Source of the DNA: Pseudideonella sakaiensis
Lineage (GTDB): Bacteria > Pseudomonadota > Gammaproteobacteria > Burkholderiales > Burkholderiaceae_C
Assembly (NCBI RefSeq): GCF_001293525.1
Contig: NZ_BBYR01000037.1
Location: 1 to 64,000, forward strand
Length of the DNA: 64,000 bases
Direction of reading: 5' to 3'
The notes under the pieces are model-generated. The model saw nothing but the letters and a program-made list of their open reading frames with translations. It was not told where the DNA came from and did not search any database. The translations under genes and the position numbers were made by a program. Numbering within the stretch: the first letter of the stretch is position 1; the number at the start of each line of letters is the position of its first letter. Below, one piece after another: positions 3,120 through 10,886 of the stretch.

Positions 3120-4792
3120 GGCACGGTGTCGACGATCCCGTCGCCGGCGCGTACGCAGCGCCCGCTGCCGTCGCGCAGGCAATGCGGGACGTCCACCGAC
3201 TGCGGCGCGGTCCACGGGCCGATGAAGCCGTCGGGGTCGCGCACGCGCAGCCGCACCCAAAAGCGGCCGCTGCCCGGCAGCGGCAGTTCGACCGCGGGCC
3301 GGTCGAGCTCGACGCTCGCCACGCCCTGGGTGAACGCGGGGTCCCGGGCCAGCTGGACGTCGAAGCGCTGGCCGGGCTGGCCTTCCCACGCCAGGCTGAG
3401 CGACTCGTCACCGATGCGCGGTGGCGGCGGGTTCGGCGGCGGCGGGCGGATCTCGAAGCCGCGCGCGTCGCCCCAGGGGCCCGCGTCGCCGCCCGGGCGG
3501 ACGCTGCGCAGGCGCCAGCGGTAGCGGCCCGGCGCCAGCCCGTCGACGACGGCACCGGGGGTGCCCAGGTCGGCCAGGTCGCGCAGCGGCGCCTCGAAGC
3601 CCGCGTCGCCGGCGATCTGCAGCCGGTAGCTGCCGGCCTCGGCATGGGCCGCCCAGGCCAGGCTCACCCGCTCACCCGACAGCACGGCGCCCGGGGCGGG
3701 GCTCGACGGCAGCGGCGCCTCGGGACGCGCCTTCAGGCGGAAGCGGTGGTCCGCGTCGTAGCCTTCCCAGCCCTGCGGGTCGATCGCGCGCACGCGCAGG
3801 AGGTAGTCGCCGTCGGGCAGGTCGGCGAAGCGCAGCTCGGCGCCGGCGGTCGTCAGGTCGGCCAGCACGGTGTCGAAGCTCGCGTCGACCGCGACCTGGG
3901 CCCGCCAGGCCCGCACGCCCTCGGGCCGCGGCAGCGCGAAGCGCACCAGCAGGCGCTGCTGCAGCCCGGGCAGCGCGGCCAGGTCCGGCGCCGGCGCCAG
4001 CGGCGAGGCCGGCGCGACCCGTCCGTCCGCGTCGATCGCACTGCCGTGGCCGGCCGTGACCGGCTGCCCCGAGAACGCGACCGTGCCTTCCAGCACCTCG
4101 CCGCGCGTGGTCGCCCGGTCCGTGGCCACCTCGACCCGGAACGCGGTGCCGCGCACCGCGAGCACGCCCTGCGGCGTGCGCACGCGAAAGCCCGGCAGGC
4201 CGGCACCCGCCGTGCCCGCCTTGATCTCCACGCGCCCCGCGTCCAGCCGGGTGCCGGAGCGGGTGCCGCCGACGCTCGGCAGGCGACGGGACTCGCTCAG
4301 CTCGAGCCGGGAGTCGGCGCGCAGGCGCAGCACCGTGCCGTCGACCAGGCGCACCGTCAGGTTGCCGTCGGCGCCGGTCTGCAGCGAGCGGCCCTCGGCA
4401 ACGGCCTGGCCGACCTGCAGCGCGCCGTCCGGCAGCAGGCTCGCGCGCCCGGCGACGCCGATCACCGTGGCCGTCGCGGGCTCGCTGCGCAGCCAGTCGA
4501 GCGGGATCCGCAGCGCCTGGCCGACGGCGATGCGGTGCGGGTTCGCCAGGCCGTTGACGCGGGCCAGCTCGCGCCAGCGCCCGGGATCGGCGAGCAGCCG
4601 GGCCGACAGCCCGATCAGCGTGTCGCCCGGGCGGGTGGTGTAGTCCAGCGGCGCCTCGTCGCCGGGCGCGGCGGTCGCGGCGGCGGGAGCCGCGGCGGCG
4701 GGTGGTGCGGACGTGGGCGGGCCGGCGAGGGCGGCACAGACGACGACGGCCGGGATGAGCGCGAGGCCGAGGCCGGCGGCGCGCCGCGTCAA
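3116..4792 (-). CDS. FecR-domain protein with LysM module
   Basis: A 558-aa exported protein. A signal sequence or anchor (about 1-25) precedes an Ala/Pro linker, a LysM peptidoglycan-binding module (about 51-98: YTTRPGDTLIGLSARLL to VGQALRIPL), a FecR domain (core about 180-218, PQGVLAVRGTAFRVEV), then fibronectin-type or Ig-like repeats to the C-terminus (about 265-540; FVLRVRA-like strands such as DGDYLLRVRAIDPQGWEG). FecR domains usually pass periplasmic signals to ECF sigma factors. Here no sigma factor is present and the neighbours are a NarL-type regulator and a CHASE2 kinase. The start is inferred as TTG in a TTGA overlap with the regulator stop. It probably acts in the periplasm on the cell wall. 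Confidence 0.85.
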   Translation of the reverse strand: MTRRAAGLGLALIPAVVVCAALAGPPTSAPPAAAAPAAATAAPGDEAPLDYTTRPGDTLIGLSARLLADPGRWRELARVNGLANPHRIAVGQALRIPLDWLRSEPATATVIGVAGRASLLPDGALQVGQAVAEGRSLQTGADGNLTVRLVDGTVLRLRADSRLELSESRRLPSVGGTRSGTRLDAGRVEIKAGTAGAGLPGFRVRTPQGVLAVRGTAFRVEVATDRATTRGEVLEGTVAFSGQPVTAGHGSAIDADGRVAPASPLAPAPDLAALPGLQQRLLVRFALPRPEGVRAWRAQVAVDASFDTVLADLTTAGAELRFADLPDGDYLLRVRAIDPQGWEGYDADHRFRLKARPEAPLPSSPAPGAVLSGERVSLAWAAHAEAGSYRLQIAGDAGFEAPLRDLADLGTPGAVVDGLAPGRYRWRLRSVRPGGDAGPWGDARGFEIRPPPPNPPPPRIGDESLSLAWEGQPGQRFDVQLARDPAFTQGVASVELDRPAVELPLPGSGRFWVRLRVRDPDGFIGPWTAPQSVDVPHCLRDGSGRCVRAGDGIVDTVP

Positions 4793-5427
4793 GCCGAGTC
4801 CCCCAGCCAGCCCAGCGCGAGGCGGACCAGCATCGCCGGCGAGTCGGCGCCGAGCTTGGCCTTCAGTGCCGCCTTGTGGCTCTCGATGGTCTTCACGCTG
4901 CGGTTCAGGCGCTCGGCGATCTCGCGCGTGCTGTGGCCCGCCGCCACCAGCCGCAGCACCTCGATCTCGCGGGTCGACAGCGGATCGCGCGCGGCGGCCG
5001 GCTCGCCCTGGACGGCACGCCGCAGCAGCCGCGCATTCAGCCCCGCGCTGACGAAGACGCCGCCGGCCAGCACGGTGTCGACGGCCTCGAGCAGGGTGGC
5101 GCGCGGCGCCGCCTTCATCACGAAGCCGTCCGCGCCGGCGCGCAGCGCCCGCTCCGCGTACAGGTCCTCCTCCATCGACGTGAGCACGACGATGCGCAGG
5201 CCGGGCTGCAGCGCGCGCAGCTGCGGCAGGGCCTTCAGGCTGAAGCCGTCGGCCAGCGCCAGGTCCAGCAGCAGCAGCGCAAACGGCTCCGCGGCGAGCT
5301 TCTGGCGCGCCTCGACGAGGTCGGCCGCGTCGACCGTCTCGGCCCGTCCCGCCAGCGCATGCCGCACCCCCAGGCGCACGATGTCGTGGTCGTCGACCAC
5401 GAGGACGCGGGGCAGGGGACCGGACAT
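4789..5427 (-). CDS. NarL/LuxR-type response regulator
   Basis: 212 aa. A receiver domain (about 6-120) has the acidic pair D12/D13, the phosphoacceptor D55 in LLLLDLALADG, a switch position at VVLTSMEED and the conserved Lys in FVMKA. A C-terminal LuxR helix-turn-helix (about 148-205) carries LSTREIEVLRLVAAGHSTRE and SVKTIESHKAALKAKL. It is a DNA-binding regulator controlled by phosphorylation. Two kinases sit on the same strand, one upstream and one downstream, and either or both could be its partner. The stop overlaps the next gene's proposed TTG start, suggesting translational coupling. Confidence 0.93.
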   Translation of the reverse strand: MSGPLPRVLVVDDHDIVRLGVRHALAGRAETVDAADLVEARQKLAAEPFALLLLDLALADGFSLKALPQLRALQPGLRIVVLTSMEEDLYAERALRAGADGFVMKAAPRATLLEAVDTVLAGGVFVSAGLNARLLRRAVQGEPAAARDPLSTREIEVLRLVAAGHSTREIAERLNRSVKTIESHKAALKAKLGADSPAMLVRLALGWLGDSA

Positions 5428-7761: not shown

Positions 7762-7962
7762 TCACTGCGGCTCGGGCATCTTGCAGTCCGGGTCCGAGTA
7801 GGGCCCGGCGATGCGCGTCCACTCCTTGCCCGGCGCATCGGGTTCGCAGGCGACGACCCGGGTCGACTTGTGCTGCCACTTGTAGTACAGGCTCGGCTGG
7901 GCCGAGACGGAGACGGCGGCGAGCAGCGCGGCCGCGGCGAGGATCAGGCGGGTACGGGGCAT
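7762..7962 (-). CDS. small secreted hypothetical protein, 66 aa
   Basis: It has a clear signal peptide (RTRLILAAAALLAAVSVSAQ, cleavage probably after AQ at about residue 22) and a mature part of about 44 residues with two cysteines (VVACEPDAPG and DPDCKMPEPQ) that could form a disulfide. I do not recognise the family. It lies 19 bp downstream of the peptidase-like lipoprotein gene on the same strand and is followed by a terminator hairpin, so the two genes probably share a transcript. A good signal peptide, the tight spacing and the terminator support it as real. Confidence 0.7.
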   Translation of the reverse strand: MPRTRLILAAAALLAAVSVSAQPSLYYKWQHKSTRVVACEPDAPGKEWTRIAGPYSDPDCKMPEPQ

Positions 7963-7981: not shown

Positions 7982-9655
7982 TCACTTGAAGATGAGGGAG
8001 TTGCCGACGACCACCAGCAGGTTCTTCGTCTGGCCGACGATCGCCGTGCGGTAGGCCTCGTAGCGCGAGTCGGTGATCGCGTTGTCGTTGCGCGGCTGGC
8101 CCGTGATGGCCTGGCTGTGGTAGTTGTTCATCACCGGAATATGGATGTGCCCTGCGGGGATGTCCAGCATGAAGGTATCGCGCAGCAGGGTGTTGCGGTA
8201 GGCGCTCTCGTTGGAGAGGTAGGAGCCGCCACCGCCGTTGCGCGAGCACCAGGCCGGGTTCGGACGCGGGATGGTCGACAGGTCGGGCATCGCGTTGAAC
8301 ACGGTGTGCGTCGGGACGTTGACCGTGTCGACCGCGTTGCAGTCGGGGAAGTAGCTGAAGCTCGTCTGCCACAGCACGTCGAAGCCCTCGGTGCCCTGGC
8401 TGGTGGCGCCCGGCGGCCGGACGATGCCGGACTGCGTGTTGCCGGTCGTCATCGCCGCATGCGGGTTGCTCGACTCGATGAACTGCGGCGGGAAGTCCTT
8501 CAGCCAGCGCGTCGCCGCGTCGTAGCCCACCCAGCGCTGCGGCGGCGTGACGTTGCAGCCCGCGCCGACGTCGGTGATCGGGTCGGTGTCGGGTGCGGTG
8601 ACGCTGCCGATCGCCCAGCGGAAGGACGGCAGGCGGTCGGCGCCCGGCGGGCAGAACACGATGCCGTCGTTGCCCGAGGTCGGGCCGGTGAAGCGCCCGT
8701 TGAAGGCCTCGAGGTTGAAGCGGTTCGCGCTGCCCTGGCTGATGGTGATCGACGCGTCGATGCGCTTCGGCCCGGGCAGGAACCAGGGGCCCAGCGTGTC
8801 CTCCTGCATGCCGCGCAGGAAGGGCGTGTAGCTCACCGGCAGCACGTAGGCCTGCACGTGCAGCGTGCTGCCGTCGGGCAGCGTGAACTCGCGGCCGTCC
8901 ATCTCGAGCGCGGTGGCGCCGGACGGGTTGCCGTTGCGCAGCCCGGTGTTCGGCGTTCCCGGCGTGCCGAGCGTGAAGACGTCGAAGCCGCTGATGATCA
9001 TCCGGCGGTACTTCTTGCCGGCCGGGTTGTTGCCGGTGGGGAAGTCGATGTCGTACTGGCCGCGCGACGCCCGCTCGAACTCCCAGTGCAGCTGCTCACG
9101 CTGGGCGGCGCTCAGTGCGAAGGACGGCGCCCACTGGCGCAGCTCCTTGGACATCGCAACGCGCGCCCAGTACAGCATCCGGTCGTCGCTGGCCGGCAGC
9201 ACGCTGGCGGCCGGCGAGGCCCGGCGCCGCTGCACGCGGTCCACCGCGGCACGCCACAGCGCGGCGCCCTCGGCCTTCACCAGCGCGACGGCCTGCTCGA
9301 GGTTGGTGACCTGGGTGGTGCCTCCGGCGGCGCACAGCTTCGCCGCGAAGGCCGGCGCGAAGCCGTCGAAGCCGGTGTCGACCAGGATGCGGGTCGCCAC
9401 CGGCGTCTCGTCGTTGGTCGTCACATTGGCCCCGCTGGCGGGCAGCGGCGTCGTCAGCCGGCGCTCCTCGTAGGCCAGGGCCGCCGCGCGGTTGACGGCG
9501 CAGGCCACCGTGGGCGGCGGCGGCGGTGGCGGCGGCGGGCTGGCCACCGGCGGTGGCGAGGCCACGGGCGGGCTGTCGTCGCCGCCGCCGCACGCCGCCA
9601 GAAAGAGCGCCGCGACGCTCGCAAAGGTCGCCCGCATCCTGATCCCGTTCCCCAT
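7982..9655 (-). CDS. pyroglutamyl-peptidase-like lipoprotein with Ser in place of catalytic Cys
   Basis: 557 aa. The signal peptide ends in a lipobox (LFLAAC), then a Gly/Asp stretch and a long Pro tract (about 28-48), a surface-lipoprotein arrangement. The C-terminal half matches peptidase family C15: an opening strand RMIISGFDVFTL, a Glu-containing segment NLEAFNGRF, a motif GGSYLSNESAYR where the family has Cys before Asn, and GHIHIP carrying the catalytic His. At the nucleophile position S481 is present. It may be a Ser variant, inactive, or a binding protein. A second in-frame ATG lies six codons downstream and is an alternative start. C15 enzymes are normally cytosolic, so an exported form is notable. 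Confidence 0.7.
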   Translation of the reverse strand: MGNGIRMRATFASVAALFLAACGGGDDSPPVASPPPVASPPPPPPPPPTVACAVNRAAALAYEERRLTTPLPASGANVTTNDETPVATRILVDTGFDGFAPAFAAKLCAAGGTTQVTNLEQAVALVKAEGAALWRAAVDRVQRRRASPAASVLPASDDRMLYWARVAMSKELRQWAPSFALSAAQREQLHWEFERASRGQYDIDFPTGNNPAGKKYRRMIISGFDVFTLGTPGTPNTGLRNGNPSGATALEMDGREFTLPDGSTLHVQAYVLPVSYTPFLRGMQEDTLGPWFLPGPKRIDASITISQGSANRFNLEAFNGRFTGPTSGNDGIVFCPPGADRLPSFRWAIGSVTAPDTDPITDVGAGCNVTPPQRWVGYDAATRWLKDFPPQFIESSNPHAAMTTGNTQSGIVRPPGATSQGTEGFDVLWQTSFSYFPDCNAVDTVNVPTHTVFNAMPDLSTIPRPNPAWCSRNGGGGSYLSNESAYRNTLLRDTFMLDIPAGHIHIPVMNNYHSQAITGQPRNDNAITDSRYEAYRTAIVGQTKNLLVVVGNSLIFK

Positions 9656-10082: not shown

Positions 10083-10634
10083 CTACAGCGACGCCGCTGC
10101 GCGCGCCGCCTGGTCGTAGACGCCGGACAGCGCGCGCAGCAGCCGCGCCAGCTCGCCGATGTCGTGGTTCAGCGTCTCGGTGGCATTCAGCGCGCCGATC
10201 AGGCATTCCTCGCGGATCTGCCGATAGCGCTCCACGTACTGGCGGCCGGCGTCGGTGGTCGCGTAGGTGACCTCCTTGCCGCTGCGCGTCCCCTCCACCA
10301 CGCCGAGCCCCTGCAGCTTCTTCAGCGAGTAGTTGATGAGGTGCGTGTCCTCGACGTTCATGATGAAGCAGATGTCGGACAGCCGCTTGTCGCGCGCGCG
10401 GTGGTTCACGTGGTGCAGCACCAGCACGTCCAGCGGCGTCAGCTCCTTCAGGCCCGCGGCCTTCATGCAGTGGACGATCCAGCGCGAGAAGGCGTTGTTC
10501 GACACGATCAGGCCGTATTCCAGCTCGCTCAGCTCGCGGCTCTTCGGCGAGACCAGGTGCGCCGACGAGACGATCTCCAGGTGCCCCTCCGGCGGCGGAG
10601 GAAGCGGGTCGGCAGCGTTGCGGCGGCGGGTCAT
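10083..10634 (-). CDS. winged-helix (MarR-like) transcriptional regulator
   Basis: 183 aa, one MarR-like winged-helix domain. Helices with LTPLDVLVLHHVNHRARDK lead to a recognition region LSDICFIMNVEDTHLINYSL and a wing GVVEGTRSGKEVTYATT, then C-terminal dimerisation helices. It is cytoplasmic and DNA-binding; no ligand pocket can be assigned. The start ATG follows a short upstream gap containing a palindrome that may be its own operator. The same 14-bp motif lies upstream of the neighbouring lipoprotein gene, suggesting that gene is a target. Confidence 0.85.
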   Translation of the reverse strand: MTRRRNAADPLPPPPEGHLEIVSSAHLVSPKSRELSELEYGLIVSNNAFSRWIVHCMKAAGLKELTPLDVLVLHHVNHRARDKRLSDICFIMNVEDTHLINYSLKKLQGLGVVEGTRSGKEVTYATTDAGRQYVERYRQIREECLIGALNATETLNHDIGELARLLRALSGVYDQAARAAASL

Positions 10635-10703
10635 GCGATCGTCTCCAGGGGCTGCGATGCGCAGCGGGAGCGCGATTGTCAGCGGCCGGAGAGGTGATGA
10701 ACA

Positions 10704-10726
10704 TCGGCAATTTGCCGACGATTCGT
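10704..10726. promoter_or_regulatory. candidate operator: TCGGCAA-T-TTGCCGA palindrome overlapping TGCCGACGATTCGT
   Basis: A perfect 7-bp inverted repeat with a 1-bp centre (10704-10718) overlaps the 14-mer at 10713-10726 that recurs upstream of the lipoprotein gene. It is 70-92 bp upstream of the regulator ATG, consistent with autoregulation. This is inference from position and repetition. Confidence 0.5.
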
Positions 10727-10886
10727 GACATACCCGCTTTTGCAGCGGCGCACGCGGGGTGGCCGCCCCCGCCCCGCGCGGTTGCGGTGAACCGGCCGGG
10801 TCAAGCCACGCGCCCCCGGGCCGCCCGCCGCGCGAGGCCATGGGCGGCATCAAGCAGCCGGCGCTGCGCGGCTGCCTCTCACGCTC

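Follow-up and report, generated by a model that had tools for sequence, protein, structure and literature searches.

The gene and its protein

The window, that is, the whole 64-kb stretch (64,000 nucleotides) of Pseudideonella sakaiensis DNA analysed here, carries on its reverse strand an ATG-initiated open reading frame whose product is a predicted lipoprotein (Table 1). The N-terminus of the protein reads MGNGIRMRATFASVAALFLAAC. By eye, a lipobox-like LAAC pattern ends at Cys22 and a Gly/Pro-rich linker runs on to about residue 51, so that the lipoprotein behind a proline-rich stalk described in the initial annotation was recognized again. The helical domain that follows contains EE.R, W, DR.LYWAR and RG motifs that are invariant across the 28 members of alignment A5, and was modelled by AlphaFold2 with a pLDDT of 90.2. 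Foldseek gave no PDB match for this domain at E ≤ 0.001. Its top match in VIA, a designed helical repeat at Z 8.4, was set aside, since such scores lie in the uninformative range for helical folds. The remainder of the protein contains the motifs ISGFDVF, FNLE (with E316), YLSN (with S481) and GHIHIP (with H505).

A gene for a small secreted protein lies immediately downstream. On the other side, at 10083-10730 of the same strand, the window encodes a winged-helix regulator of the HTH_27 type, close relatives of which occur at two other loci (L020 and L022) that also carry a TRAP transporter and the serine-type gene.

Table 1. Features of the serine-type gene and its small neighbour in the window
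Feature	Position	Strand	Basis
Serine-type C15-like lipoprotein, predicted exported, 557 aa	7982..9655	-	Open reading frame and translation, family, fold model
Predicted signal peptide with lipobox, residues 1-22 (Cys22 = 9590-9592)	9590..9655	-	LAAC pattern, by eye
Gly/Pro-rich linker, residues 23-51	9503..9589	-	Sequence
N-terminal helical domain, residues 58-218	9002..9484	-	Alignment A5, model
C15/clan CF-like domain, residues about 216-557, with an insert between Glu and Ser	7985..9010	-	VIA, 23 C15 entries
E316, counterpart of the C15 catalytic Glu	8708..8710	-	Glu in 60/60, joint alignment
S481, in the nucleophile Cys column of C15	8213..8215	-	Ser in 60/60 aligned and 74/74 read; codon read
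H505, counterpart of the C15 catalytic His	8141..8143	-	His in 60/60; 24 residues from S481
Small secreted partner, 66 aa, 19 bases downstream of the serine-type gene; predicted mature N-terminus Gln22	7762..7962	-	Alignment A6

The C-terminal domain models as a pyroglutamyl-peptidase fold

The window protein alone matched no Pfam family at E ≤ 10, and hence did not exceed the PF01470 cut-off. In NCBIfam, pyroglutamyl-peptidase I appeared only below threshold (E 0.18, residues 476-515 against positions 138-177 of the 215-position profile). Because these matches are absent or sub-threshold, the sequence of the window protein by itself is insufficient to trust a C15 reading. Among the 23 members of alignment A1, eight matched PF01470 at E ≤ 10, the best of them at E 0.037. 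A profile search of the PDB returned no matches, and the RNase matches obtained when the PDB was searched with the window protein (E 2) were dismissed as chance.

The initial annotation had proposed a C15 homologue, and the structural comparison agrees with it. An AlphaFold2 model was built from 23 sequences (pTM 0.89, mean pLDDT 83.9). With this model, the top 12 Foldseek matches, which are all those at E ≤ 0.001, are pyrrolidone carboxyl peptidases (C15), and so are the top 23 VIA matches to the C-terminal domain (Z 17.2-20.7, 189-211 residues aligned, rmsd 2.6-4.0). The D. radiodurans enzyme 5z40 aligned over 206 residues at Z 20.7 and rmsd 3.4 in VIA. The first other fold in the VIA list is that of nucleosidases and phosphorylases at Z 11.2. 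Nucleosidases of the PNP/MTAN type thus have the broad fold in common (Z about 11), but they were rejected on account of the gap to the C15 entries and the retained C15 motifs.

Intermediate sequences connect the two groups. L065, a distant gammaproteobacterial homologue, scored 30.5 bits against the PF01470 cut-off of 22.7, and L108 scored 33.7 bits against the same cut-off, which was also passed by L107, L080, L082 and L096, while L106, L109 and L074 fell below it. As these intermediates exceed the cut-off, the sequence gap between the window protein and C15 is closed. In a profile-profile comparison, the family matched 18 ordinary C15 sequences at E 8.7e-08 with a probability of 94%, with only the first half of the domain aligned; removal of L065 left E 1e-05 and a probability of 82%. 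Taken together, the C-terminal domain of the window protein models as a pyroglutamyl-peptidase fold (MEROPS C15, clan CF).

Serine occupies the nucleophile position in all family members read

The initial annotation had also stated that the Cys-Asn motif of C15 is replaced by Ser-Asn at S481. The motif indeed reads YLSN, and several comparisons place S481 on the nucleophile site rather than away from it. In joint MAFFT alignments, a single column holds 41 serines of the family against 18 cysteines of ordinary C15 enzymes, or 60 against 18 in the enlarged set. The spacing of 24 residues between S481 and H505 recurs in L074 (335-359) and in the ordinary cysteine C15 of the same genome (142-166). 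When L065 was compared with this latter enzyme by BLASTP, the first segment had an E value of 4e-04, and a further ungapped segment, weak on its own (E 0.44), set serine against cysteine. When 20 members were searched with a local profile built from the C-terminal part of C15, cysteine was likewise placed over serine in gammaproteobacterial members, weakly (best sequence E 0.00026 within this small set), while in the window protein only the His region was covered. In the AlphaFold2 model, S431 (mature numbering) stands at the start of a helix that follows a strand.

All 74 family genes that were read, which represent four phyla, have serine at this column: reading of the motif gave serine in 73 of 73, and L163 from Bacteroidota added one more. 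None of the 74 homologues carried cysteine there, which argues against a lone mutation, and none carried alanine, glycine or threonine. These genes comprise 60 from one joint alignment, 13 more and L163, and include all 43 genes of one gammaproteobacterial order. They are not independent, as L039 and L111 are different strains of the same species and many of the rows are closely related. Not included were L028 (its contig stops short of the motif), G820 and G1123, which duplicate loci already counted, and a second Tenacibaculum record (H12). That S481 reflects a sequencing error or a solitary mutation of an ordinary C15 enzyme can practically be dismissed, given the serine in 74 of 74 genes and the separate ordinary cysteine C15 in the genome.

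The other C15 motifs noticed at the outset, namely the GFD opening, the Glu region and the His of GHIHIP, are likewise in place. The Glu, the His, the Asn after the nucleophile, the Phe pair of GFxxF and the Asn-Pro motif are each kept in 60 of 60 family members in the joint alignment, in which all 18 ordinary C15 rows have the nucleophile cysteine; in L163, read by eye, Asp stands at the Glu position. The Phe pair (Phe10 and Phe13) contacts pyroglutamate in C15 enzymes. Two further columns, those of Arg91, on the oxyanion side in C15, and of Gln71, appear to differ between the two groups in a part of the alignment that is gappy. Arg occupies the Arg91 column in 17 of 18 C15 rows, but no family row among the 60 has it there; at the Gln71 column the family has Ile, Met or Val, and Gln is present in only 9 of the 18 C15 rows. 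Unless these columns are misaligned, the oxyanion and the ring must be contacted in another way.

In a quick tree, a single long branch (SH-aLRT 100) separated 18 cysteine C15 rows from 40 serine rows; all C15 sequences in it were taken from relatives of the window's genome, and it settles neither where the root lies nor which way the change between cysteine and serine went. The serine would probably act as the nucleophile in this C15-like family.

Distribution, predicted export and cysteine content

A genome scan for relatives gave 22 loci, with best segments 40-70% identical. By family profile search, members were detected in 4 of 399 genomes of the window's own family, 2 of 274 of its class and 8 of 299 of its phylum (the own genome counted in each), and in 42 of 197 genomes of one gammaproteobacterial order, with 43 genes. 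Further relatives were taken from plasmid records. The members come from Burkholderiales, a Hyphomicrobiaceae metagenome-assembled genome and an Enterobacter plasmid within Pseudomonadota, and from Myxococcota, Actinomycetota and Bacteroidota. The serine-type exported C15-like family is widespread and has been overlooked in bacteria.

C15 peptidases are normally cytosolic cysteine enzymes. Unlike these, the family members whose N-termini were inspected by eye begin with signal- or lipoprotein-like sequences. The exceptions are the 595-residue L163 protein, which is of another build, L038, which is cut by a contig end, and L110, whose annotated start lacks a signal peptide. Counted from a point within the helical domain through to the C-terminus, no cysteine is present in 40 of the 43 gammaproteobacterial members; L151 and L155 each have a single unpaired one, and L150 has two. 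Each of three Actinomycetota members has two cysteines, and the mature parts of Burkholderiales and Myxococcota members mostly have four or six, except for L024 (whose count includes the lipobox) and the truncated L038. This pattern fits an avoidance of free thiols outside the cytoplasm, which may also explain the serine. Having serine where C15 has cysteine probably reflects adaptation to an extracytoplasmic setting.

The L163 gene (L163:3185-4969; CP116296.1, a Tenacibaculum finnmarkense plasmid) shows a further arrangement, in which the serine-type C15-like and helical domains form the end of the 595-residue protein. The gene lies in a type VI secretion cluster, after genes for TssD and a baseplate-V protein and with a DUF4280 gene downstream, and its product is a candidate type VI secretion cargo.

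Gene neighbourhood and pyroglutamate pathway

Neighbourhoods were compared by tblastn in 28 sources, i.e. the 22 genome loci, 5 plasmid loci and the 64-kb window. PxpA and PxpB occurred together in 9 of the 28 (L023, L028, L030, L031, L032, L035, L036, L037 and L040), an ordinary C15 gene in 9 (L030, L031, L032, L034-L038 and L040; cysteine motif in all nine) and the TRAP component DctM in 4 (L020-L023), several of these linked loci being related Variovorax and so not independent. For L023, Pfam and NCBIfam models confirmed DctM together with PxpABC; for L035, they confirmed PxpABC together with C15. In L023 the genes share a strand, in the order dctM-pxpB-pxpC-pxpA-serine-type gene-small partner; in L035, pxpBCA is followed by a divergent lysR, the serine-type gene, the small partner and the cysteine C15 gene. 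The TRAP receptors of L020, L021 and L022 have 2pfy or 2pfz as their best PDB match (E 6e-115, 3e-110 and 3e-130, respectively); we take 2pfz and 2pfy to be DctP6 and DctP7. According to one report, structures of the B. pertussis receptors DctP6 and DctP7 were determined with 5-oxoproline (PMC13274462).

Among the loci examined, linkage to pyroglutamate genes was confined to Burkholderiales and one betaproteobacterium. None of 15 gammaproteobacterial loci (up to about 7 kb on each side, less in two) had pxp, ordinary C15 or TRAP genes, and tblastn gave no such matches near the Myxococcota, Hyphomicrobiaceae and Actinomycetota loci. Across the 197 gammaproteobacterial genomes, PxpA did not co-occur with the family (25 of 42 genomes with it against 86 of 155 without, Fisher p 0.73).

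The 64-kb window itself gave no tblastn match to pyroglutamate pathway genes, and no PxpA was found in its genome. The same genome, on contig C39 (L167:3506-12878), encodes the ordinary cysteine C15, a 1268-residue protein of the hydantoinase/oxoprolinase type and a TRAP transporter, whose receptor is 68% identical to that of L022 and has 2pfz as its best PDB match. No NCBIfam name was obtained above cut-off for the 1268-residue protein, for which 5-oxoprolinase is a likely label. The C39 cluster is thus likely to be a pyroglutamate utilisation cluster.

The small secreted partner

Relatives of the small partner adjoin the serine-type gene in 19 of the 28 sources, many of them Burkholderiales, and additionally in L127 and L162; in L039, L111 and L127 the partner lies upstream. 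In the 19 copies of alignment A6, two cysteines are invariant, as is the Ala-Gln where signal cleavage is predicted. Two copies were searched against Pfam and NCBIfam, with no family found for either.

Gln at the N-terminus of a mature protein is able to cyclise to pyroglutamate, which makes the partner a candidate substrate or plug of the serine-type protein, a suggestion that we offer as a lead only. A predicted Gln at +1 is not rare, as it was present in 7 of 45 crude signal-peptide matches from two genomes (a noisy pattern with visible false positives). Therefore, the fact that Gln is invariant across all 19 partners amounts to modest evidence. The glutaminyl cyclase PF05096 was found in neither of two genomes searched, the window's own and G042, so that cyclisation of the partner Gln would need to be spontaneous or carried out by another enzyme. 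Nor did this cyclase co-occur with the family in the 197 gammaproteobacterial genomes (2 of 42 against 7 of 155).

Proposed function and rival explanations

The reading that we hold, with moderate confidence, to be the best one is that of an extracytoplasmic clan CF omega-peptidase with a Ser481-His505-Glu316 triad, which would remove N-terminal pyroglutamate and feed pyroglutamate uptake. The analysis provides the predicted fold, the homology, the invariant Ser, Glu, His and Phe pair, the signal-like N-termini and, for some lineages, the linkage to pyroglutamate catabolism genes; the reaction, the role of the serine as nucleophile and the substrate are inferred. Counting against this reading are the differing Arg91 and Gln71 columns, the restriction of the linkage to Burkholderiales and one betaproteobacterium, the lack of co-occurrence with PxpA in gammaproteobacterial genomes, the lack of pathway matches in the window and of PxpA in its genome, and the unpaired cysteines of L151 and L155. 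Peptides or proteins blocked by pyroglutamate (pGlu) would be cleaved on the cell surface or within the periplasm. Ser481, activated by His505 and Glu316, would most likely attack the pyroglutamyl carbonyl, while the Phe pair would hold the lactam ring as in C15. The released pyroglutamate could then enter through a TRAP transporter of the DctP6/DctP7 type and be turned into glutamate by a 5-oxoprolinase, which would be PxpABC in some relatives and the hydantoinase-type candidate in the window's genome. The use of serine in place of cysteine would avoid a free thiol outside the reducing cytoplasm.

Replacement of cysteine by serine often abolishes the activity of cysteine peptidases. The family might thus be catalytically dead, a pyroglutamate-binding protein in which the pocket is kept and serine fills the site, and which senses, chaperones or delivers pGlu peptides, e.g. 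to the TRAP transporter. The apparent loss of Arg from the Arg91 column and a helical domain that Foldseek cannot match in the PDB would suit such a binder. However, Glu and His, although needless for binding, have been maintained in every aligned member, and the serine has never drifted to Ala, Gly or Thr, and we therefore regard a dead binder as rather unlikely. An active serine hydrolase acting on something else (an N-acyl, lactam or ester substrate, or a protein N-terminus other than pGlu) is less probable again. The long insert between Glu and Ser and the additional N-terminal domain may reshape the site, the Gln71 and Arg91 columns appear to differ, and the gammaproteobacterial genomes show no pyroglutamate linkage, but against this stand the universal retention of Phe10, Phe13 and the Asn-Pro motif and the pyroglutamate genes that adjoin the serine-type gene in some Burkholderiales. 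It is highly improbable that the protein is an ATP-independent periplasmic 5-oxoprolinase acting on free pyroglutamate, like that of Alcaligenes faecalis N-38A. Linkage to pyroglutamate uptake would fit here too, Alcaligenes belongs to Burkholderiales and its enzyme has a Sec signal peptide (PMC13274462), but the equilibrium favours pyroglutamate (PMC13274462).

A published study describes a pGlu block that stabilises exported proteins, and reports that losing pGlu formation on exported proteins is lethal in Porphyromonas gingivalis (PMC10653852). Because of this lethality and the type VI neighbours of L163, an attack on rivals is conceivable, and we may speculate that the Bacteroidota copy strips the pGlu block from the exported proteins of rivals. 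A combined scenario would make the family the first serine-nucleophile clan CF peptidases, forming an ancient exported branch in which serine took the place of cysteine because the domain had moved out of the reducing cytoplasm, with the small secreted protein, its N-terminal Gln cyclised to pyroglutamate, as a dedicated substrate or plug in Burkholderiales, and recruited to type VI secretion in Bacteroidota for stripping the pGlu of rivals; in this full form it is a tentative proposal that we think improbable.

A natural, family-wide use of serine for cysteine that coincides with export would offer a clean natural experiment on the choice between the two nucleophiles in peptidases. If the omega-peptidase reading is true, the family would provide an exported enzyme for removal of the block that stabilises exported proteins (PMC10653852). 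A gene that neighbours OXA-48-type carbapenemase genes would thereby gain a role, and the pathway by which Burkholderiales scavenge pyroglutamate would be completed.

Comparison with known systems

No report of a serine-form or exported C15 enzyme was found in the published, mostly open, literature searched. According to the accessible part of two papers, a Peptidase_C15 gene flanks the blaOXA-48-like and blaOXA-55-like carbapenemase genes of Shewanella (PMC8513682, PMC9604219); in that part, the domain name is given with no word on serine or export. These Shewanella genes would belong to the gammaproteobacterial arm of the serine family by way of L108, which lies at 3731-4888 on the conjugative plasmid pOXA436 beside blaOXA-436 and an SprT-type gene. 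L108 is annotated as hypothetical and is a family member with serine; compared with the window protein it is shorter (385 aa) and has no cysteine. In addition, two Streptomycetaceae members carry the annotation pyroglutamyl peptidase. The initial annotation had suggested a new serine-dependent or inactive extracytoplasmic branch. The branch itself is supported, but its novelty is confined to the serine form: C15 homology was already in print for the Shewanella members.

PxpABC 5-oxoprolinase and the DctP6/DctP7 TRAP receptors, which are encoded beside the serine-type gene in some Burkholderiales, are partners in the proposed route and not relatives. The nearest known system is pyroglutamyl peptidase I (C15, clan CF, PF01470; P. 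furiosus 1iof and D. radiodurans 5z40), whose fold is alike at Z 17-21. The two groups have in common the Glu, the His, the Asn after the nucleophile, the GFxxF and NP motifs and the 24-residue spacing from nucleophile to His. The serine family differs from C15 in having Ser for Cys in all members read, in its predicted export, in its extra N-terminal helical domain and Glu-Ser insert, and apparently in the Arg91 and Gln71 columns, where the alignment is gappy. Clan CF is described as comprising one family, C15, made up of cysteine peptidases with a Glu, Cys, His triad (PMC12445089). The serine family is thus better classed as an exported serine branch of the clan CF fold than as a C15 cysteine peptidase.
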